A DNA stretch of 64,000 nt from contig JACQWY010000040.1 in the NCBI GenBank assembly GCA_016209015.1, positions 1 to 64,000 on the forward strand. Direction: 5' to 3'. The translations under genes were made by a program, and so were the position numbers. The stretch's first letter is position 1, and each line of letters begins with the position of its first letter. Of this stretch, positions 1 through 47,505 are shown in pieces. The stretch is from Gammaproteobacteria bacterium (lineage in GTDB: Bacteria; Pseudomonadota; Gammaproteobacteria; Ga0077536). The notes beneath the pieces are model-generated. The model saw nothing but the letters and a program-made list of their open reading frames with translations, searched no databases and had not been told where the DNA came from.

Positions 1-90
1 ACGTTCAACTCCTCGCCTCCCAGGCAAAAGGGAGGCAGCGTAAACGTCCCGCCGCACCGCCGGCGGCAGCGCTCGGATCAGCTCAGCACT

Positions 91-133
91 GGGGGAGTTT
101 CAGGTGGCCACAGATGGGGGAATTTGGGTGGCC
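91..133. repeat. Two short direct repeats resembling IS21-family terminal repeats
   Basis: Two imperfect copies of a GGGGGA-TTT-GGTGGCC pattern lie at 91-109 and 116-133. Multiple internal terminal repeats of this kind occur at the ends of IS21-family elements, whose istA/istB genes would then lie to the left, outside the window. No transposase is visible here, so this is only a suggestion. Confidence 0.3.
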
Positions 134-260
134 GCCGGGGCTTCCATGACGTGAACAAGCGCAAACGGGAAAGTCGGCTAGCATTGTAGTGCTAGCCCGT
201 AACACGCGCTATGTTCAGAATTGAATCCAGAATCCCGTAGATGCCAAGACGAGGAACGTG

Positions 261-773
261 ATGGCCGGCATCGATTTTGACTTTGATCTGGAGCTGCTCA
301 AAAGCGCCGTGAGGCTGGTCGACGACCGACTGAAAAACCTGGAAGCCGCGATCGCAAGATTAGAAGCCCCGGAGGTACTCTTCGATGAAGCGGAGCACGT
401 CACCGGCTTCGGCTTTGTCGCTTGTCAGACATTCATCGCCACAAAAATCAGCGCGAGCGCGCTTAGAGGTCAGGGTCGGGAAGCGCTTGCGCTCGGGCCG
501 AGACATCGCACCGGGAAGCCCATGGTTCAGATTGTTAACGCCGCCGCAAACTACTGGAAGCACTCTCACCAATGGTCCATCGATGGCCCGGACGCGAAGG
601 CGTCAACGACTATCGAAGCAATCGAAAGCCTGGGCATCAGTACAACAGGCCCGTTCCCATATGCGACCACGAACGTGCTGCACGAAATTCTAGCGCCGCG
701 TAGGGCACGCTTTTTGTATTTAATCCCGTTCTTGAAGCAGTGGCGCAATGCGCTACCCCGGCCTGCGGCTTGA
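261..773 (+). CDS. Hypothetical protein, island cargo
   Basis: I do not recognise this protein of about 170 residues. The start is chosen at the ATG at 261, preceded by GAGGA at 251-255; an in-frame GTG lies immediately before it. The N-terminus is acidic and helical (DFDFDLELLKSAV), with no signal peptide or membrane segment. It is the only clear plus-strand gene in the island and lies next to the cargo end, facing the minus-strand genes. Its 3' end carries a GGCGCAATGCGC palindrome that recurs at about 10200. Cargo or defence roles are possible but nothing in the sequence proves one. Confidence 0.55.
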   Translation: MAGIDFDFDLELLKSAVRLVDDRLKNLEAAIARLEAPEVLFDEAEHVTGFGFVACQTFIATKISASALRGQGREALALGPRHRTGKPMVQIVNAAANYWKHSHQWSIDGPDAKASTTIEAIESLGISTTGPFPYATTNVLHEILAPRRARFLYLIPFLKQWRNALPRPAA

Positions 774-833
774 TCCACCGCTATGCGCCGTCTGCGATCA
801 CCCGTATGGATCCCGGCCGCTGCTACCGAAAGC

Positions 834-1769
834 CTATTCTGCGACGGACGGACCCGGATTTTCGGGGAACACGTAGGGGCGCGCGAGATTAAACACCACC
901 TGAAATGCGACCGCTTGGAGAAAGATCGCGTCAGCTGCATGCGAGGCTTGATCATCCGGATGCCAGGGCTTCGCCTTGCCTACTTTCGGCGGACTATGGT
1001 GCAACCGCCCTCGAAGTTCGATGATGCGATCGATCACGCGATCAACGCTTGAAGATCCATACGTTTCCAGGAACGCTTTCCGCGTTTGATTGTTCATCGG
1101 CCCGACAGCGCCACGATCGATTAGGGCGGCGTGAATATAGTTCCTCAGATCGTTCGAGCTTCTAAAATTCCGTGCCACGGCGTTCTTCTTGAAGTGGCCG
1201 GCCGCGAACTCCCGCTCCAACACGAAGTAGAAATCGTAAATGGCTTCGATGTAGGCGCCGGAGGCAATATCAAGCATTCCTCGCCGGAAAAAATTCAACG
1301 AAAGTTCGATGTCAGGAGCGGATTCGATCGCGTCGACCGATCTCGCGATTAGATCGAAGTCGACGAGTGGCGCTGCATCTGGATCCTGCGGCTCTAGTCT
1401 GGAGGAAAAGGAGCGTAGCTGTAGAGCGTTGGCCTCCTCGTCCGTTTCGGGAGTCCACACAACCTCATGGTGCTCTAGATCGATCCACCGAAGGCCGTAA
1501 AGGGCGAGTAGCCCTTGCAGTGTTACCAGCTCCCTCCGCACGAAGGGCCAATCCACTCGTCCGAGGTGAACGTTGTATTTCACCGGGCCGTTCGGGTTTT
1601 CTTCAACACGCGGCCAGTGCGTCGGGTCGGGTAGCGGAACGGTCACGTCGATATGCGTGACAACTCGGTCTCGCGTAATAAATTCGAACGTCCAGCCTCG
1701 CGCAACGACGGGACGAGCACACTCCACGCAGAGCGTGCCGTGAACGGAAACCCGGTACCGGCATCTCAT
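834..1769 (-). CDS. Hypothetical protein with possible C-terminal HEPN-like domain
   Basis: This soluble protein of 311 residues has no recognised family. The C-terminal half is helical, with a conserved-looking SLNFFRRGMLDIASGAYIEA segment and later an ELRGRLHHS motif. RGRLHH fits the R-X4-H pattern of HEPN ribonuclease domains, which are common in phage-defence and stress proteins, but this is a short-motif argument. The N-terminal half has CVEC, a possible half zinc site. It lies beyond the terminase gene at the cargo end of the island, where satellites usually carry accessory or defence genes. The start is uncertain. Confidence 0.55.
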   Translation of the reverse strand: MRCRYRVSVHGTLCVECARPVVARGWTFEFITRDRVVTHIDVTVPLPDPTHWPRVEENPNGPVKYNVHLGRVDWPFVRRELVTLQGLLALYGLRWIDLEHHEVVWTPETDEEANALQLRSFSSRLEPQDPDAAPLVDFDLIARSVDAIESAPDIELSLNFFRRGMLDIASGAYIEAIYDFYFVLEREFAAGHFKKNAVARNFRSSNDLRNYIHAALIDRGAVGPMNNQTRKAFLETYGSSSVDRVIDRIIELRGRLHHSPPKVGKAKPWHPDDQASHAADAIFLQAVAFQVVFNLARPYVFPENPGPSVAE

Positions 1770-1827
1770 CGAAGCGTGCGCTCAGGCATCCATAGAGTTC
1801 GCGGCAAAGCCGGTCACGAGCGCCGGT

Positions 1828-2202
1828 CTACTTGCACAATGCGTTGAACAGGCGCTCGTCTGTCGTGCCGGGCTCGATGCCAAATGGCCGATTTAGGAAT
1901 GGCGCGTTATAGACGTAGCGCCCGTCCACTATGGCGGACTTCACGGTCACTTCTCGTCGGCGGCAATCCAGGTGAACAAAGTTTTTTGTCGCATCTCGCC
2001 CCGCAACAACGTATCGGACCCACACCGCTGTGATCCCTTTCGTTTCGCCCGGATATGCAATGCTGTCTTTGTCGTAGAACGCAGTTCCCTCGATTCCTTC
2101 CTCAAGCGGAGCGTGCTCGGCGAGCAGGTTCCAGTCGACTCCTCTTGAGGTCGCGCTCACGAGAAGAAGAAGCCCCCCGACAGCGACCGAACTGAATCTC
2201 AT
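1828..2202 (-). CDS. Exported protein resembling surface-adhesin protein E
   Basis: A protein of 124 residues with an N-terminal signal peptide (MRFSSVAVGGLLLLVSA) and a small mature domain. The layout W-x-L...FYDKDSI...VWVRYVV...LDCRRRE...LFNALCK matches the Adhesin_E-like domain: a Tyr-Asp strand, a V-W-V-R strand, a mid-domain Cys and a C-terminal Cys that would form a disulfide. Its ATG overlaps the stop of the upstream 66-residue gene as ATGA, so the two are translationally coupled. The role is probably a periplasmic or surface protein; adhesion is only the family name. Confidence 0.6.
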   Translation of the reverse strand: MRFSSVAVGGLLLLVSATSRGVDWNLLAEHAPLEEGIEGTAFYDKDSIAYPGETKGITAVWVRYVVAGRDATKNFVHLDCRRREVTVKSAIVDGRYVYNAPFLNRPFGIEPGTTDERLFNALCK

Positions 2203-2399
2203 GGTTTCTGCGTCCGCTCTCCGTCCGCGACAGGAAACGCGTCGTCAGCGTGCGTGCTCGGCGCCGGCTGCGCCGGAGAATGATCCTGCGGGGTTCCCCC
2301 GTGACTCACGCTGTCCGGGTGCTGCCGCAACTTCGGCGTGTGCCCCGCCGCTACGTTCCGGTCGTGCCACTCCAGCACCATCTTTGCCTTGACGCCCAT
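2199..2399 (-). CDS. Small hypothetical protein coupled to the exported protein
   Basis: A 66-residue product starting MGVKAKMVLEWHDRN, with a Pro/His/Asp-rich tail and no recognised family. An upstream in-frame TTG at 2456 would give 85 residues; the ATG at 2399 is preferred. The main evidence that it is real is the ATGA overlap of its stop with the start of the next gene. Confidence 0.45.
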   Translation of the reverse strand: MGVKAKMVLEWHDRNVAAGHTPKLRQHPDSVSHGGTPQDHSPAQPAPSTHADDAFPVADGERTQKP

Positions 2400-2456
2400 T
2401 GCGGATCCCCGTTGCCGATGTAGTTCGAGCGTAGCGCTAGGCGCCGATCGCTTCAA

Positions 2457-2596
2457 TGCGCGGGTCTGAAAATTTCGGGACTCCGACTATTCCGCGAACA
2501 CCGCCCCGGTCGATAGCCGCCTATACGCGCGTCTCTGAAATTCCGGGACTCCGGTTATCCGCAGAAATACCCCGGCGTCTTCGGCGCCTGTGAAGC
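2457..2596. repeat. Degenerate tandem repeat of about 70 bp in a non-coding gap
   Basis: Two diverged copies begin at 2457 and 2527. They share GCGCG-TCTGAAA-TT-CGGGACTCCG followed by a CCGC-GAA-A-C-CC block; a third, weaker start (CTCCGAAAATTTGGGG) lies at about 2602. A related copy occurs outside the island at 11678-11720. The gap 2400-2993 contains no convincing gene. Confidence 0.5.
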
Positions 2597-2993
2597 GGCG
2601 GTCTCCGAAAATTTGGGGAGGTACTTCGATCCACGAAGGCCGGGGGTGCTCCGGGCGCAAAGGATTTCGACCTCACGGAATTGCCGCGAGCGGCCGCAAG
2701 ACGAATGGAGAGGGCGCAGGAGATGAGGTCGGGTGTCGATGAGGGCGAAGTACACAGAGGGCGGCGGCCCTCTTCCTCCTCGCGCCGGCCTTTACTCCGA
2801 CTCGTGCGGGATCTCCCCCTGGAGGGGTGTGGTCAATCCTTTCGACCCGCTCCCGGGGGGCCTGCCTTCCACGTCGTCGGGCAGCGCGCGTCGAGGACCG
2901 TTCACTGAACGTTCGCCAAATGTTCGTCGAACACCATCGCCGCAGCGTGCGCTACCGTCATCAAGACGATCGCGGCGCAATTCCGGCGCGCCG

Positions 2994-3449
2994 TCAGTGC
3001 GGTTTAGCGGCGCCGTCAGCCTGAGCCGCCCGATTCTTGTCATGTTCGGCCAGCATGACTTTGATCGCTTCCTGGACCGTGCGCAGGTCGTCGCGGCTTA
3101 ACGACGCGAGCGGGCTACGCTGCCGGTTGTCGATCCCGAACACTCCGACGATGCGGCCGAGCGCCTGCCATGCCGCTACGCGGGCGCTGTGGCTGGCGCC
3201 GGGACCGGAGAACTCGGCTTCACGCATCAACCCCTCGATCACCTTCTCGCGCGTGATCTCCGTCTTGGCACTTTGGCGACTACGCAGCGCCGCGATGGCG
3301 CGAACCACGTCAGCGTCCTTGAGCAGCCGATAAGCAGTCGTGCCCGCTCCTGTTCGTGCGTAGCCGGCACGAATGGCCGCTGCCGACCCGTTCGAATCCA
3401 CGACGTACTCCTCGACGAATCGAGCGCGCTTCCCAATCAAGTTAGCCAT
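2994..3449 (-). CDS. Phage terminase small subunit (TerS)
   Basis: A 151-residue protein beginning MANLIGKRARFVEEY, followed by a helix-turn-helix stretch (GSAAAIRAGYARTGAGTTAYRL) typical of the Terminase_2 small-subunit family. These proteins recognise the packaging site on DNA and hand it to the large subunit. ATG at 3449 is chosen because it has GAGGAG upstream; an earlier TTG is in frame. It is the last gene of the leftward replication-like operon. No large subunit is visible next to it. In satellites a lone TerS redirects packaging by a helper phage. Confidence 0.85.
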   Translation of the reverse strand: MANLIGKRARFVEEYVVDSNGSAAAIRAGYARTGAGTTAYRLLKDADVVRAIAALRSRQSAKTEITREKVIEGLMREAEFSGPGASHSARVAAWQALGRIVGVFGIDNRQRSPLASLSRDDLRTVQEAIKVMLAEHDKNRAAQADGAAKPH

Positions 3450-3614
3450 CAAGATCTCCTCGTCGTCGCGTGATCTTCAGCTCGTCGCGTGCGATTCAAT
3501 CCTGCACCAGAGCTACGGAGAAGGCGCTGAATCGTCGATCACTTGCGACCCGCGCCCTTGCCCTTACCCCGAATGTCCCGATCGTCTGCGCGCCGTCTCC
3601 GTCGTTGCAGATTC

Positions 3615-5048
3615 TCATGCTGCCCGTCGCTCGTCGGCATAGCGGAGACGCACTGCGCGGGCGATTCGCTTCGTCTCCTCGCTGGGCGCGAGCGGAGCCA
3701 GATTCTCCCACGATTTCGCGGGCGCCTGTCGAACGGCCTCGCGGTAGATCCATTCGGCCCATCCGCGATCCCTATCAAGATCTGACGCGAGGCCGAGGAG
3801 TTCCTGAAACAGTCGCCGCAGACTTGCGCGCGTCATCTCGTCAATCCGAACCAGCGCACCGTCCCGAACTCCAATCCGATTCCCGCGAGTCGGGCGGAAT
3901 CCGCAGGAGCACTGCCGCACATGAGCGGCGAGCATCTTGGAGCAGTGCGGGCAGGGTTCGAGCCACTTCGAATCCGGGAGACGCGCCCGCCAAGTCTTCG
4001 ACTCCTCGTCGAGCTGGCCGATCGCGATGTCCTCGGGCATGCCGTGCATCTCCACGTTGCCGGCGTGGTCGAGGATCAGCGCATCGCGCTTCCCGGGATG
4101 GGGCCGTAGCACGCGGCCGATCTGCTGGATGTGCAGGGTCAGACTCCTGGTCGGACGCGCGAGGACCGCGCAGCTCGCGATCGGCGCGTCGAATCCGGTC
4201 GACAAACAGGCGACCGACGCCAACACGCGGATCTCGCCGCGCTTGAACCGCTCGATCGTCTCGCGCCGCTGCTTCAAGTCCTGGTAACCGTGCACGTGAT
4301 CGGCGGGGATCCCAGCAGCCGCGAACGATTCGGCAACGACCCGGGCGTGTTCGATGTCGGCGCAGAACGCTAGCGTCGAGCGAGCATCGCCGAGTCGCTG
4401 CCATGTCGAAACGATGTCGGCAGTGATGGCCCCGCCGCGCAGGCGAGCCGAGAGCTGGGCGACAACGTAATCCCCGCCGCGCACATCGATCCCAGTGAGA
4501 TCCGGCCGTGACGGGCCGTAAGCGACGGCTGGCACCAGAAATCCACGAGCCACGAGCTGCGCGATCGTCGCCGGCAGCACGATGTTCGAGAAACAACGGC
4601 CGAGGCCGGTCGTGTACGGCGTCGCGGTCAAGCCGACTACCGGCACTTCGGAATATCCTTCGAGTAGATCCGCGTGCGCGCGGTGCAGGACGTGCGCCTC
4701 GTCGATGATGAGCAACCCGGGATCCGGCAGACCGCGCCGGGCGATCGTTTGAATCGATCCGACGAGTACCTCGTGCTCCGATTCCATTTGCGAGTTCGCG
4801 CCCTGCAAGACGGAGCACCGCAACCCAACGGCGCGCATCGTCTCTGCTGCCTGTGCGGCGAGTTCAATCCGATCCACGATGAACGCGGTCAAGCGTCCTC
4901 GGTCCCGAGCGGCGAGCGCGATGTGTGCGGCCGTGAGCGTTTTGCCGCTGCCGGTCGGCATGACGAGGAGTTGCCGGTCATAACCCTTCCGAAACCCTTC
5001 CCGAAGGGTTTGGATACCGTTTCGCTGGTGTTCGCGGAGTTCGATCAC
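3615..5048 (-). CDS. SF2 DEAD/DEAH-box helicase, phage type
   Basis: A 477-residue protein with the superfamily 2 motifs in order: Walker A MPTGSGKT (about residues 30-37), DEAH (about 116-119), TATP (about 141-144), and a C-terminal RecA lobe with QQIGRVLRP. A Cys-rich tail (CPHC...CSCG) looks like a small zinc site. It probably unwinds or remodels DNA or a replication fork during element replication. The start is placed at GTG 5048, which overlaps the primase stop as GTGA like its neighbours; an ATG at 5114 would instead give a 70-nt overlap. Confidence 0.88.
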   Translation of the reverse strand: MIELREHQRNGIQTLREGFRKGYDRQLLVMPTGSGKTLTAAHIALAARDRGRLTAFIVDRIELAAQAAETMRAVGLRCSVLQGANSQMESEHEVLVGSIQTIARRGLPDPGLLIIDEAHVLHRAHADLLEGYSEVPVVGLTATPYTTGLGRCFSNIVLPATIAQLVARGFLVPAVAYGPSRPDLTGIDVRGGDYVVAQLSARLRGGAITADIVSTWQRLGDARSTLAFCADIEHARVVAESFAAAGIPADHVHGYQDLKQRRETIERFKRGEIRVLASVACLSTGFDAPIASCAVLARPTRSLTLHIQQIGRVLRPHPGKRDALILDHAGNVEMHGMPEDIAIGQLDEESKTWRARLPDSKWLEPCPHCSKMLAAHVRQCSCGFRPTRGNRIGVRDGALVRIDEMTRASLRRLFQELLGLASDLDRDRGWAEWIYREAVRQAPAKSWENLAPLAPSEETKRIARAVRLRYADERRAA

Positions 5049-5968
5049 GGAGAAATTTCCGGAGTGGTCGCGAACGTTCGCGCGCCCTCGCGAGCGCTGC
5101 TCATCGATCGCCATGCGTTTACCGCATCGTTGAAATCCCCGCCGCCGCCGTGGCCGGGCGGGAATTTCGGCAACACGACCCGGCAGCCGACAGCGGCGCC
5201 CGCTTCTTTTGCCGCCGTGTGCCCCGGATTGCCCGGCGTTTTTTGATCGTCATCGGCCATGATCACGAGGTCGATCGCCCCCCAGGTGCGCCGGATTTCC
5301 TGCGCAACCGGAAGGAGGTACCTCGCACTGAAAGCAACGACCACGCACTCGCCGAATTCTTCATGCAGGCTCGCGCCGGTCGCGAAGCCTTCGCAAAGCC
5401 AGACTTGCGGCGTGCGCTCTCCGATGACGAAGAACGAACCCGACGCACGGCCGCCCGTGAGGAACGTCTTGCCGCCGTCTGGGTTGATGAACTGCAAACT
5501 CTGGACCTGCCCCTCGGCGTTCCGCATGGGCACGACGAGGAGGCCCCCCCGCTGCCGTACGCCGTACCGGCGAACGCTCTTAATCCTCAGGTAGGGGTGA
5601 GCAGCGCTGGCCGGCCGCGAGTCGTTCCAGATTTGGACTGCCCGAGCTGCGGCGGCACGATACTTTTCCGCCTGCTCCTGTTCGCGGATCCTGCGCTGTT
5701 CTGCTTGTCGTTTGCGCTGCGCTAGCGCTTCGACTGAGTTCACGTCGCGGGCCTCACGCCAGGAATACCATTCGCCGGTTTTCCAGCTCCCGAACGATAC
5801 ATGCAGCGGAATCGAGCCATCGCAGATGTACCGACCGTTCTTGCGGCCGGGTCGATCTCCCGCCACCTGGAAGTCATGCCAGTCGTCGTCTGCAACGATT
5901 TCGAGGTTCTCAGCCGGCGCGACGCCGTGAGCGGACATCTCCGCGAGCAACGCATCGGGCGGGATCAT
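5045..5968 (-). CDS. Toprim-domain DNA primase-like protein
   Basis: A 307-residue protein. The C-terminal half has a Toprim fold signature: VWLCEGFATG with the catalytic Glu, then DLVIMADDD with the acidic triad, and a GDFND motif near the end. The N-terminal part (IPLHVSFGSWKTGEWYSW) resembles the substrate-binding region of phage and plasmid TraC-like primases, and an Arg/Gln/Glu-rich helix links the two. It lacks a fused helicase, which the next gene supplies. Its ATG overlaps the upstream stop as ATGA. Confidence 0.8.
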   Translation of the reverse strand: MIPPDALLAEMSAHGVAPAENLEIVADDDWHDFQVAGDRPGRKNGRYICDGSIPLHVSFGSWKTGEWYSWREARDVNSVEALAQRKRQAEQRRIREQEQAEKYRAAAARAVQIWNDSRPASAAHPYLRIKSVRRYGVRQRGGLLVVPMRNAEGQVQSLQFINPDGGKTFLTGGRASGSFFVIGERTPQVWLCEGFATGASLHEEFGECVVVAFSARYLLPVAQEIRRTWGAIDLVIMADDDQKTPGNPGHTAAKEAGAAVGCRVVLPKFPPGHGGGGDFNDAVNAWRSMSSAREGARTFATTPEISP

Positions 5969-6510
5969 CGGGAACCCCTTGCGGCTTTCGGAAGCACCCT
6001 GTCCTCATGCCCAACTGTGCCGTGGTTATAGGTGGCAGTAGATCCCTCCTTCGGAGAGGAAGAGTTAGAGTTAGACGCGCGTGAAATGGAGTTTGCCATT
6101 TTCGACGAATGGCAATTGCCATCGCCACCGGCAGTGTGTTCATCGTTTGGCTCGATAGCATTTGCCATCGGTTTGTCATCCCACCGCGCCGCCGCCCCTT
6201 CCTTGCCCGCAGCCGCGCGTTTCTCGCTCTTGGCCGCTGCTTCCGCCATTTTTTCGGCGAGTTCGGGATGCTCGTAGCCGGCATCGGTGAGACGGAAAAA
6301 GCGCGCGAGGATGTCATCGATCATCGGCCGGTGCCGTCGCTTGGCCCGGATGATTTTCGCGATCTCGTCAGAAGATTTAGGAAGAGGTCCGTTCAGCCAC
6401 TGAAAATTTTTCATGCGAATTAGCGCACCTTCAGCCTCAAGCGAGAGGTCGGCAGTGGCGGCCAAGTGTTCGAGCGGCTCGAACTTGTACCAAGGGAAGC
6501 GCCGGCTCAC
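5965..6510 (-). CDS. DUF1376 family phage protein
   Basis: A 181-residue protein. The first 80 residues (FPWYKFEPLEHLAATADLSL, then EGALIRMKNFQW and LARFF) match the DUF1376 domain found in phage replication modules. The remainder is Ala/Lys- then Ser/Asn-rich and probably disordered. Start GTG at 6510 overlaps the upstream stop as GTGA. The molecular role is unknown; members often sit where a replication-initiation protein would be, as here directly upstream of the primase. Confidence 0.72.
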   Translation of the reverse strand: MSRRFPWYKFEPLEHLAATADLSLEAEGALIRMKNFQWLNGPLPKSSDEIAKIIRAKRRHRPMIDDILARFFRLTDAGYEHPELAEKMAEAAAKSEKRAAAGKEGAAARWDDKPMANAIEPNDEHTAGGDGNCHSSKMANSISRASNSNSSSPKEGSTATYNHGTVGHEDRVLPKAARGSR

Positions 6511-7310
6511 GCGGCCCCCTGTTCCCGCTCACGTACGAGATCCAGAAGGCCCCGAACGGCGTCGAGGAGCGCTGCCACGCATTCCGGAGTCACCATCTCG
6601 TGCTTGAGTCGTTCGGAGAATCCGAACGCGTAGCGGGCATCGTCAAAGGATCGATGCGTCGCGTCCCGAAGCGCCTGCGCGGCGGCGAGGGCCGTCAGAG
6701 GTGGCGCGGCGTATGGGTCAGACTCGCACTCCCGCTCCTCGCGCCGGCCATCGTTCCGTCTGCGTGGCTTCCTGCGGCGCGCCGGATCGGCAGCAGGCTT
6801 CTCGTGATCGTTACCATCACGAGGATCGGGCTTCACTTGCGTCGCTTCAACCGCAGCGCGCGCATCGTCAGCAGTAACGCGAGCGTTCCCGTCTCCATCC
6901 AGGCGGGCACGTTCCATCGCCGCCGACAGCGCCGCCTGCGCCTCGGATGGATCGTCGACCACATCGGCGAATTCTCGAATCGCAGCGTCGCTCATAGGCG
7001 GCAGCTCAGTGATCAATTTTTCACTGGCGGAGGCGAGAGCATCGGCAATTTTGGCGGCTTGGAGCTTCAGGTAGGCGGCGCGCGGCGACATCCCGAACTC
7101 GGCTTCGCAGTATTCGCCGAAGTTCGTGTAGCCCAGCGCGACGTGCCCGGCGCCTTCGTAAATCCGAAGAAGGAGCATGCGTAACTCGTCGTGACGTGTC
7201 CGGGCTTGTGCGGTGAGTTCCGTCGCTTCCTCTCGGCTGAGCGGTCGGCCGCCCGGCGGGTGCGTCGCAATGGCATCGGCGTGGAGGCCGATGGTGATCG
7301 CGTTGCTCAC
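6507..7310 (-). CDS. Putative DNA-binding phage protein
   Basis: A 267-residue protein with no firm family. Residues of about 45-90 (YEGAGHVALGYTNFGEYCEA, then SPRAAYLKLQAAKI) look like a helical DNA-binding region seen in phage and plasmid proteins annotated as ParB-like or of unknown function. The middle is a basic Pro/Arg/Asp-rich linker (DPARRRKPRRRNDGRREERE) and the C-terminus is helical. GTG start and stop overlap their neighbours by four bases. Confidence 0.55.
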   Translation of the reverse strand: MSNAITIGLHADAIATHPPGGRPLSREEATELTAQARTRHDELRMLLLRIYEGAGHVALGYTNFGEYCEAEFGMSPRAAYLKLQAAKIADALASASEKLITELPPMSDAAIREFADVVDDPSEAQAALSAAMERARLDGDGNARVTADDARAAVEATQVKPDPRDGNDHEKPAADPARRRKPRRRNDGRREERECESDPYAAPPLTALAAAQALRDATHRSFDDARYAFGFSERLKHEMVTPECVAALLDAVRGLLDLVREREQGAA

Positions 7311-7576
7311 GCGGCTGCCTCGGCACTGGAAACCAGAACCGCGCGCTCGTTCATAAGTCGCGTGCTCAGCTCGCGGAGACCCTCGTCGGTCACTCCGCCG
7401 ATGAGGGCTACCACAATCCGATCGATTTCGTGAGCGGGCAGCCGGCGCGACCTGCCCAGGCCGATCGGACGAGGCAGCCGGCCGTCGGCGATCATTGCGT
7501 AGCCGCGAGATTTCTTAGTTCCGATGCGCGAAAACGCATCTTCGAGAGAGAGAAGGGCGAGGGTAATCTGGGTCAT
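7307..7576 (-). CDS. AlpA-like regulator or excisionase
   Basis: An 89-residue product beginning MTQITLALLSLEDAFSRIG, followed by KKSRGYAMIADGRLPRPIGL and RSRRLPAHEIDRIV. This is the short winged-helix pattern of AlpA/excisionase regulators, which bind DNA near attachment sites and activate integrase or excision. ATG 7576 is preferred to a TTG at 7600. It heads the tightly coupled replication operon, and its stop overlaps the next start. In Gram-negative satellites AlpA is the main activator, which fits this position. Confidence 0.75.
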   Translation of the reverse strand: MTQITLALLSLEDAFSRIGTKKSRGYAMIADGRLPRPIGLGRSRRLPAHEIDRIVVALIGGVTDEGLRELSTRLMNERAVLVSSAEAAA

Positions 7577-7659
7577 CGTTTCTGTCTCCACTTGGTTCAA
7601 GTGGATATGAAAGATATACCCCGGACCGTGTACTCATCGCCCTGTTGAGTACACTTTTT

Positions 7660-8340
7660 TTACTCTAGGTCGGCAGGCTCCTCGTCGTCGCGGACAATTG
7701 TCGAATAGCTGACGCTGAACTTCTTCTCTGCCAGTTTCCGGGCGGAGCGCTGAGTGTGCCCCTGCGACCGCTTTTCTTTCACGAAGGTCCGGACCTCTCT
7801 TCCTCGTTGCTCGCGCTCCTCGACGGTACTGCGCGAATTCAGACCACCAACCCTGGATTTTCTCCCGGCTTCGGCGTCAGGGCGCATACGGATCGCTTCG
7901 AGCTGTCGAATCCGCGCCTCCGCCGTCGCAGCGCCGCGCAGATTCCCGCGCACGTCGAGTTCATACAGGCCGACCGCCGCGAATACGGGAGCTGCCCTGA
8001 ACTCCCGGAAAAGCTCCTCGATGAGCGCTGGCTGTTCTACACCCAGCAGGACCAGCAGATCGGCATCGTCGACCTCCACGTCTTCTTTGACCCGGAGCCG
8101 CCTTCGCCGTAGAGCGGGATCAACATCGACCAACCCCGGCGGTGGGGCTAAGTTCGGGGACCGGCGAATGAACTCGTTCAAGACCGCGTCGATCTGATGC
8201 CAGATGAATTCAGAATCGTGACCGCCGAGGGCTTCTTGGAAGTATTGGCGTTGAGCCGAGTGACGCTCTGGCCGTTTCGGCTCGATCGAGTGCTCGTCCT
8301 TCGCGACACGAGCACGTTTTTCAGGTGGACGCTTCGCCAT
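7660..8340 (-). CDS. Hypothetical protein with C-terminal helix-turn-helix-like region
   Basis: A basic, soluble protein of 226 residues with no recognised family. The last 45 residues (SQGHTQRSARKLAEKKFSVS, then YSTIVRDD) resemble a helix-turn-helix. The middle contains an acidic strand-rich stretch (DDADLLVLLGVEQPALIEEL). It lies between the integrase side and the AlpA-like gene, where repressors or partners of the lysis-lysogeny switch are usually found; that role is an inference. Confidence 0.5.
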   Translation of the reverse strand: MAKRPPEKRARVAKDEHSIEPKRPERHSAQRQYFQEALGGHDSEFIWHQIDAVLNEFIRRSPNLAPPPGLVDVDPALRRRRLRVKEDVEVDDADLLVLLGVEQPALIEELFREFRAAPVFAAVGLYELDVRGNLRGAATAEARIRQLEAIRMRPDAEAGRKSRVGGLNSRSTVEEREQRGREVRTFVKEKRSQGHTQRSARKLAEKKFSVSYSTIVRDDEEPADLE

Positions 8341-8378
8341 TGATTAGCCCCGCGCCTGCCAGCGCCGAGCACCAGCCA

Positions 8379-8639
8379 TCAGCGAGCGACGGTGCGCTTG
8401 ATTCGACCGACCGCGCCGATCCCTTCGTCGGGCAGGTGGCGAACCCCAGCGAGCACGGCCCGAAGCAAGTGCAGGCGCTCGCCCGTGAGCGCCGGCGCCG
8501 AGAGCCAGTCTTCGGCGACGCCAAGAACGCTCGCGAGCGCGTCGAAGTGGTCGCGCACCTGATCGAGCAGTTGATTGATTTCCGCGCTGTCATCGCGCGC
8601 GTTCAGAGAGACAACCGAAGTAGAATTTCGAGTAGCCAT
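8379..8639 (-). CDS. Small hypothetical island protein
   Basis: An 86-residue product starting MATRNSTSVVSLNARDD, with a GGGGGAA stretch just upstream of the ATG. It is largely helical (AEINQLLDQVRDHFDALASV) with no recognised motif. It is the gene nearest the integrase in the leftward series. Confidence 0.45.
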   Translation of the reverse strand: MATRNSTSVVSLNARDDSAEINQLLDQVRDHFDALASVLGVAEDWLSAPALTGERLHLLRAVLAGVRHLPDEGIGAVGRIKRTVAR

Positions 8640-8740
8640 GGTGCATTCCCCCAAGTAGGTTTGCGCTGTGGTTAGGCCGGGATCGGTGGTATCGACATCG
8701 ATCTCGGCCGATTCGCCGGCAGCCGGCCGGCGCGGATCTC

Positions 8741-9943
8741 TTACCGAAGTTTCACGTTCGCGAAAGCTTCAGCAGCGTGAGCGCCGACTAGCTTTCCGTA
8801 TGCGATCGAGATCTGCTGCAGCGACGTGCCGACGATCTTGGAGACCGTCAACGGATCAACGCCGCCGTTCAATGCGGTCGTGATGAATGAATGCCGTAGA
8901 TCGTAAGCCGTGAACGGCTTCAGGGCGGCAGCTTTTACCGCTTCGCGAACCAGGTCATCCCAGCTCGAATGCGCCCACGGCTTGCCGTCGTCGTCGGTGA
9001 AGATTGGTGCGGCCGGGAGCTTTCGCGCGCAGAGCCGTTTAATCAACTCCTCGGCGCCCAGCGCACGCAGCGGAACATCGCGATTGCGCGGCTCGGGGCT
9101 CCTGCCCTTGTACGAAAACAGCCGCAACGTCGCCGAGGTCTTGTCGAAGTCGCCAACCGTTGCCCGGGCAAGCTCGATGGGCCTCGCGCCCGTGAACATC
9201 AGTGCTTCGAGCAGGTCCGCGATCTTCCCCCCGCCGACGTTCTTAGCGGCGTGCAGAAGGGCCTTGCGCTCCTCGATTGTGACGAACCGGCGCGCCGTGC
9301 GGGCTTGCACGTCAGAAAACTTGCTGACCCCTGCCCATGCCATATCGCTCGCGACGAGCTGGCGGCGGTGCGCGAAGTTCAAAACCGCAATCAACGCCGA
9401 GAACTCTCGGTTCGCTGTCGCCCGAGCTTTCCGCCGCGCCTCTCCCGTCAGGCCGTCAGGCACCAGCGCATCCCGCCACGCCTCGATGTCGGCCGCACGA
9501 AGTTTGGCGAGCGGCTTGCGCACCAGCGGATTCGGCTCCAGAGAACGCGCACGGGCCTTTCGAGCTTCCTCGATGCTTCGCCCCAGGACGCCGCGCTGCA
9601 GGCGGCCACGGGCTTCCTGCGCGGCGCGAGTGCCCTTCTGCGCTTCGAGGCTCGATAGGTAGGCCCGGCATGCGTCCCCGACCGTCGCGTCATGGTGCAC
9701 CACGCCTTGGTTGCGGGATTCAATCCACTGGCGGGCTGCCCGCATCGCAGCGCGGTGATCCTCGAATTTGCCGAGCTGATGATAGTGCTGCCGGCCGTCT
9801 TCTCGCAGGCGAGCGACCCAGGTGTCAGGGCCCCGCCGGAAACCTACGTAGGCTCCGGTGATGTCGCTCAGGGGTAGCCAGTACGGCTCGCGCCGAGGCT
9901 CAAGCCGGCGGCGGCCGGCCACAGTTTCGAGAGGGTTCGCCAT
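8741..9943 (-). CDS. int: Tyrosine integrase
   Basis: A 400-residue site-specific recombinase. The N-terminal arm-type region (about 20-75) and a core-binding helical domain are followed by the catalytic domain: Arg254 in FTGARPIEL, Lys279 in FSYKGRS, YDLRHS at 347-352 with Arg350, and the nucleophile Tyr382 in ISIAYGKL. The usual first His of the HxLRH box is Tyr, and the GH before the Tyr is GT, both tolerated variants. The start codon lies about 130 bp from the tRNA-Val fragment, the classic int-att arrangement. Confidence 0.93.
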   Translation of the reverse strand: MANPLETVAGRRRLEPRREPYWLPLSDITGAYVGFRRGPDTWVARLREDGRQHYHQLGKFEDHRAAMRAARQWIESRNQGVVHHDATVGDACRAYLSSLEAQKGTRAAQEARGRLQRGVLGRSIEEARKARARSLEPNPLVRKPLAKLRAADIEAWRDALVPDGLTGEARRKARATANREFSALIAVLNFAHRRQLVASDMAWAGVSKFSDVQARTARRFVTIEERKALLHAAKNVGGGKIADLLEALMFTGARPIELARATVGDFDKTSATLRLFSYKGRSPEPRNRDVPLRALGAEELIKRLCARKLPAAPIFTDDDGKPWAHSSWDDLVREAVKAAALKPFTAYDLRHSFITTALNGGVDPLTVSKIVGTSLQQISIAYGKLVGAHAAEAFANVKLR

Positions 9944-10073
9944 CGGGGGGTTGCTCTCCGTACGGAATCCGTACGGAAAACATAGCGCGGAATCGGGTGG
10001 AACTCAATGGACCTGTTTTCTTAGCAATCAATTGCTTAAATGAAAGCCATGGAAGCCAGCGGACCCGTATCCC

Positions 10074-10122
10074 ACCCTTCACACGGCAGGGGTCAGTGGT
10101 TCGATCCCACTATCGCCCACCA
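10074..10122 (+). other. Right attachment site: 3' fragment of tRNA-Val(CAC)
   Basis: The stretch from the anticodon loop (TTCACAC, anticodon CAC) through the anticodon 3' stem GGCAG, the T-arm AGTGG-TTCGATC-CCACT, acceptor ATCGCCC and ACCA is present. The 5' half is absent: the bases before the loop do not pair with GGCAG and no D-arm is found. This is the remnant left when an element inserts into a tRNA 3' end; the restored full tRNA-Val should lie at the left end, before position 1. Confidence 0.85.
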
Positions 10123-10313
10123 AATTGATCTACATCTTGTAGCGATTTTCCTTCCACGGCCGGCTCTGTACTTACGGAATCCCGCCTTGAAGCAGTAGCG
10201 CAACGCGCTATCATTTTGCTGTCCGACTGCCGACACAGCGTCGGCTGCCAATCCTCGGCATTCAGTTTACATTGACAGGCCGCGACATGGCGCGGCGAAA
10301 CCCGCGCCGGGCT

Positions 10314-46911: not shown

Positions 46912-47505
46912 ATGCTGCCCACGGATCCCGGTACGAAGCTCGCCTCGCCGCCCCCTCTGCCGCGCGATCACGACGGCGACGAGCAGACGGCGCGCAATGT
47001 CCGTTCGATCGCCGAGATCGAGCGCACCGCGCGCGACAACGTCTCGTTCGCCGAGCGGATTGCGCGACGCGTCGCGGCGTTCTGCGGCAGCGTGACGTTC
47101 GTCTGGCTGCACGTCGTGTGGTTCGGCGGCTGGATGCTCGCGAACTCGCACTGGCTGCCGGATCCGCCCGATCCCTTTCCCTATACCTTCCTCACGCTCA
47201 TCGTCTCGCTCGAGGCGATCTTCCTCTCGGCGTTCATCCTCATCAGCCAGAACCAGGAGGCACGTGTCGCGGACCGCCGCAACCAGCTCGATCTCCAGAT
47301 CAACCTGCTCGCCGAGCAGGAGGCGACGAAGACGCTGTGCCTGCTGGAGAAGATTTGCACCCGCCTCGACATTCCGGTCCACGATCCGGAGCTCGCCGAG
47401 CTGAAGCGCGCGAGCGAGCCCGAAGCGATGCTCGAGCTCATCGATCGCAACATGGACGAGCGGGAGAGCGATCCGCCGCCGGCCGACGCGCCTCAGGACG
47501 CCTGA
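46912..47505 (+). CDS. DUF1003 membrane protein
   Basis: A 197-residue protein: NVRSIAEIERTARDNVSFAE, two transmembrane helices (VTFVWLHVVWFGGWMLANS; FLTLIVSLEAIFLSAFILI), then the conserved SQNQEARVADRRNQLDLQIN and a cytoplasmic helix. This is the DUF1003 family (function unknown). It follows the BON gene by 44 bp, with a GC-rich hairpin (46876-46902, no T-run) in between that may reduce read-through. Confidence 0.85.
   Translation: MLPTDPGTKLASPPPLPRDHDGDEQTARNVRSIAEIERTARDNVSFAERIARRVAAFCGSVTFVWLHVVWFGGWMLANSHWLPDPPDPFPYTFLTLIVSLEAIFLSAFILISQNQEARVADRRNQLDLQINLLAEQEATKTLCLLEKICTRLDIPVHDPELAELKRASEPEAMLELIDRNMDERESDPPPADAPQDA

Follow-up and report, generated by a model that had tools for sequence, protein, structure and literature searches.

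In Pseudomonas sp. ANT_H14, PhiAH14b, an inducible element of 16.8 kb, is co-induced with its helper PhiAH14a, and its DNA is packed in PhiAH14a capsids; structural, terminase and lysis genes were not identified in it (PMC4936722). The element described here resembles PhiAH14b in its integrase gene, an AlpA-type gene (weakly matched in our case) and a short, Toprim-only primase gene followed by a large replication gene, as well as in the lack of recognised structural, TerL and lysis genes and in its comparable size class. However, PhiAH14b has no terminase gene, carries another integrase, gave no DUF1376 match, and its post-primase gene is unrelated to the SF2 helicase found here. PhiAH14b depends on helper capsids, as our element probably does. 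Gram-negative PICIs such as EcCICFT073 share with it an integrase at one end, an alpA-type regulator (a sub-threshold candidate in our element), replication genes, accessory genes and the absence of structural genes, and in some of them terS lies near the far end (PMC6092414). In contrast to the Toprim primase, SF2 helicase and weakly matched AlpA of our element, these PICIs use a pri-rep module (PMC6092414). The PICMI of Vibrionaceae, which are helped by infecting phages, are likewise small and contain an integrase, alpA and a primase core, but differ in their fis site, their DUF3987/DUF5906 primase and the six genes of the prototype (PMC10803314).

The window, by which we mean the whole stretch of DNA that was analysed, corresponds to positions 1 to 64,000 of contig C8; the draft genome, of 5.7 Mb in 65 contigs, is rated 100% complete. 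The element occupies positions 141-10123 and, since the window starts at a contig end, its left part lies outside. Judged by gene content and ends, it is probably a helper-dependent phage satellite that uses the 3' end of a tRNA-Val gene as its integration site and is PICI-like in its working. This follows the initial annotation in part: the satellite reading is supported by the attachment ends and by the absence of TerL and HK97 capsid matches, whereas membership in the PICI family was not established. We do not file the element as a PICI because the typical pri-rep replicon was looked for and not found, a phage-type Toprim_3 primase and an SF2 helicase being present instead. Among P4-like features, psu, sid, delta and a long P4-type primase had no match in Pfam or PHROG searches, the primase being short and Toprim-only. 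As a satellite, the element would add a poorly sampled family of Gammaproteobacteria to the known range of helper-dependent satellites, connect the published PhiAH14b system with PICI-like islands that carry terS, and offer a test case for an own TerS redirecting packaging although the genome has no helper.

Layout and replication genes

Bases 1-140, which the initial annotation had counted as part of the element, are instead the terminal part of an insertion sequence that occurs in several copies, located at the contig end. They are 100% identical to G000:C38:2-141, recur as partial copies on contigs C29 and C14 and carry terminal repeats that we assigned as IS21-like by inspection. With 10.1 kb in the window and 0.65 kb on contig C53 (see below), the element measures at least 10.7 kb plus an IS-bounded gap, compared with about 15 kb for PICIs. 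Eleven of its 12 genes lie on the minus strand, the sole plus-strand gene being a 171-aa ORF at 258-773; the home-made gene caller is weak on high-GC DNA and served as a guide only.

From right to left, the integrase gene is followed by ORFs of 91 aa (8379-8654) and 226 aa (7660-8340), both without a family, by a gene for a small HTH protein (7307-7600) and by an early gene of 267 aa with no family above cut-off (6507-7310). Then come a DUF1376 primosomal-type protein of 181 aa (5965-6510; PF07120 above cut-off, phrog_3992), a Toprim-type primase of 307 aa (5045-5968; PF13362, phrog_2249 with E 5e-61), an SF2 DNA helicase of 499 aa (3615-5114; PF04851 and PF00271, phrog_16 with E 9e-88) and TerS. 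Beyond TerS, a stretch of about 0.8 kb in which no gene was convincing separates this block from three proteins without a family of 124, 311 and 171 aa. The genes from the HTH gene to the helicase overlap in an operon-like manner (for example 7310/7307, 6510/6507, 5968/5965). The order of int, small genes, alpA-like gene, DUF1376, primase, helicase and terS is as the initial annotation had claimed, although the AlpA match is weak, and its statement that structural genes are lacking agrees with our failure to recognise any structural or lytic gene in the 10.1-kb stretch.

The HTH_17-type protein of 97 aa is a candidate for an AlpA-like DNA-binding protein or excisionase, based on its position between the integrase and the replication genes and on weak profile matches to PF12728 (E 0.005), TIGR01764 (E 0.009) and phrog_66 (E 0.05), the first two of which are below the curated cut-offs. 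The AlpA model PF05930 itself was not matched by this protein.

Integration into tRNA-Val

The integrase is a tyrosine recombinase of 400 aa (8741-9943, minus strand; PF00589 with 45 bits and E 1e-11, phrog_1 with E 1e-41). It is adjoined by a putative arm-type integrase-binding repeat, TCCGTACGGAATCCGTACGGAAA, at 9957-9979. The attR core at 10076-10123 (plus strand) corresponds to the 3' end of tRNA-Val from the anticodon loop to the CCA end. The proposal that the right border is a tRNA-Val 3' fragment was borne out by an intact tRNA-Val(CAC) on contig C53 of the same genome, the core of which (G000:C53, 47319-47366) is identical to the 48-bp copy in the window at 48/48 positions, and the matching attL that the initial annotation expected was located on this contig as well. 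The intact tRNA gene adjoins a glutamyl-tRNA synthetase gene. Exactly at attL, 53 bp of the tRNA-Val 3' end occur twice in tandem, so that two att cores lie side by side (G000:C53:47291-47422; L007 1473-1600); the second core, at 47372-47422, follows directly after the first and also matches the window core.

Just inside attL, the arm-type repeat recurs with 22/23 matches (G000:C53:47471-47493), and the form common to both ends is TCCGTACGGAATC[C/A]GTACGGAAA. Among the 294 loci examined, this repeat was found only at these two places on C8 and C53. Because of the matching core and arm-type repeat, we take the sequence on C53 to be the left end either of this element or of a sister element. Like PICIs, the element has an integrase and a specific attachment site, the tRNA-Val core and an arm repeat being present at either end. 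C53 ends about 0.5 kb further in, in an IS3-type end that it has in common with contigs C13 and C59, and a remnant of an IstA-type transposase was recognised by eye in this stretch. As IS ends bound both sides, the interior between C53 and C8 remains an unread gap, and joining the two via shared contig ends gave no unique path, the IS ends recurring on several contigs.

This IS-bounded interior makes a truncated prophage the main rival to the satellite reading. The element would then be a decayed prophage that kept its early half, with integrase, regulators, replication genes and terS, and that lost TerL together with the head, tail and lysis genes by deletion, with insertion sequences marking the scar. 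We consider such an origin rather unlikely. The order of integrase, replication genes and terS does correspond to the early half of a prophage, and both the left of the window and the end of C53 have insertion sequences. Against it, the reading frames of the named element genes are intact over their full length, and neither attachment arm is missing.

TerS, large terminase and capsid

The small terminase TerS (152 aa, full length; 2994-3452, minus strand) matched PF03592 with 57.5 bits (cut-off 26.1; E 3e-15) and phrog_51 with E 2e-16, and could be aligned to the solved TerS of Pam5 and to 3zqp. Genome-wide searches for TerL with phrog_2, for GpA_ATPase (PF05876) and for the HK97 capsid (PF05065), the latter covering this one fold family, gave zero matches, with positive controls found in other genomes. 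Phrog_2 is the broad PHROG family of TerL and also detects the TerL behind the most similar phage terS. Contigs below about 3 kb seem to be missing from the draft, the smallest one seen having 3,006 bases, so that a small fragment could have escaped, but hardly a full structural module. The claim that TerS stands alone therefore holds for the two TerL families (phrog_2, PF05876), both for the adjoining sequence and for the rest of the genome. TerS without TerL corresponds to the state of those PICIs that carry a terS gene, whereas the own TerL, capsid and connector of capsid-forming PICIs have no counterpart here as far as phrog_2, PF05876 and PF05065 are concerned. In the part of the element in the window, none of the TerL, portal, capsid, tail and lysis genes of an ordinary prophage was recognised either. 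According to the initial annotation, TerL, portal and capsid genes directly left of position 1 would identify such a prophage; the genome-wide absence of TerL and HK97 capsid matches speaks against this, whereas the IS-bounded interior leaves room for a truncated one.

In four phages or prophages with related TerS, the terS and TerL genes overlap by 14-38 bp, whereas here terS is followed by the approximately 0.8 kb without genes (2203-2993). This region contains two imperfect short repeat families (2470-2490/2538-2558 and 2480-2505/2794-2819) and is possibly a pac or ori region; when it was folded as single-stranded DNA, the stability was not above that of shuffled sequences. Profiles built from 11 and 8 TerL sequences detected nothing in positions 1-3000 above the background of other chunks of the same genome, and the lack of a TerL remnant behind terS argues against a decayed prophage. 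With tblastn, positions 2791-2618 gave an alignment of 58 residues that had an E-value of 0.02 in a very small database and of 0.19 with composition adjustment off; it was rejected as short and of low complexity.

Relatives, proposed propagation and probable cargo

The top match of the window primase in the phage collection is the primase of PhiAH14b (42% identity over 263 aa), a satellite, which counts against a decayed prophage. The replication module alone cannot separate a satellite from a phage, because broader relatives of the primase also occur in full prophages. The closest relative in the same bacterial family, on contig G002:C33 (JACPPA010000052) of a gammaproteobacterial MAG from groundwater, is a compact and complete island of 9.4 kb, bounded by tRNA-Gln and its 16-bp 3' repeat, which again disfavours decay. 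It has the DUF1376, primase and helicase genes in the same order (47%, 44% and 55% identity, respectively), and no structural genes were seen in it. In contrast to our element, it has a PhiAH14b-type integrase, a repressor, GmrSD-type cargo and a frameshifted primase, but no terS. A lone terS recurs on L220, a MAG contig of 8,988 bp with a Toprim primase, DUF927, a Terminase_2 TerS, a small ORF, an antitoxin-like HTH protein and no TerL, which also counts against a decayed prophage.

A locus in the same genome gives the decayed-prophage reading more weight: G000:C51:423-16000 (L049) encodes an integrase, a Toprim primase (46% identity to that of the window), an SF2 helicase and a different TerS (phrog_57), directly followed by tail genes for a tape measure protein and a baseplate hub; neither head genes nor TerL were seen. 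It looks deleted, and represents either a deleted prophage or a tail-bearing satellite.

Further loci carry parts of the same gene set. On L231 (CAJXVN010000108), positions 2725-9258 comprise tRNA-Lys, an integrase, AlpA (PF05930), a Toprim primase, a large gene without Pfam family and a DUF5681 gene, which is possibly a TerS; this locus is a further satellite candidate, cut by the contig end. At L050 (G002:C21, 5589-19154), an island at tRNA-Arg next to glnS contains HigA-like genes together with the same primase/helicase module, which frameshifts appear to have disrupted. L066 (G026:C60, 9587-10159), from the same bacterial family, encodes a Terminase_2 TerS with 40% identity, with no adjoining TerL and no integrase recognised close by. 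In the class as a whole, terS homologues are few, and three of them belong to prophages with TerL. None of the close relatives of the replication module carries this terS, and viral contigs contained no close relatives when queried singly with primase, terS and integrase. The absence of terS in relatives is no argument against packaging, since PhiAH14b is encapsidated without a terminase of its own (PMC4936722). For the same reason we regard it as very improbable that the element is a self-sufficient, replicating and defence-carrying integrative island with an incidental or repurposed TerS, which the GmrSD-type gene and missing terS of the integrase-, primase- and helicase-bearing G002:C33 island and the lack of a known helper might suggest, as such an island would offer little explanation for a full-length TerS downstream of replication genes and no conjugation genes were recognised.

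For the satellite reading, three features can be read from the sequence: the element is integrated site-specifically at tRNA-Val, brings its own replication module and has a TerS that lacks a partner. Upon infection by a helper, the integrase and the AlpA/Xis-type HTH protein would excise the element, and the DUF1376/primase/helicase module would generate concatemers. TerS might then tag the DNA of the satellite, possibly at a site within the gap behind terS, and load it onto the TerL of the helper for packaging in helper particles. The helper is probably an infecting phage and not a resident prophage, because the genome has no resident TerL of the phrog_2 or PF05876 families. More tentatively, the combination of a PhiAH14b-like Toprim primase, an SF2 helicase and an own TerS could define a separate lineage of satellites which, in hosts without a resident helper prophage, compete for the TerL that infecting phages supply, a possibility to which we give less credence than to the satellite reading as such.

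The genes past terS are probably cargo, and their role is possibly anti-phage, which is a guess. In agreement with the initial annotation, none of them matched a Pfam, PHROG, PADLOC or NCBIfam model above cut-off. The 124-aa protein (1828-2202, minus strand) has a sub-threshold Adhesin_E match (E 0.018), and no family was found for the 171-aa protein encoded on the plus strand. The 311-aa protein (834-1769, minus strand), likewise without a family, has two plasmid homologues (23% identity, E 2e-10). By eye, an R-x4-H string (RGRLHH) was noticed in its C-terminal half, which is reminiscent of HEPN RNases and may be taken as a lead only; a fold from single-sequence prediction was discarded as too poor (pLDDT 38). 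In the left part of the element, positions 722-755 form one copy of a 34-bp direct repeat (88%) containing a small palindrome, the other copy of which lies at 10178-10210, 54 bp outside attR; just these two copies were found in approximately 1.4 Mb of the genome.
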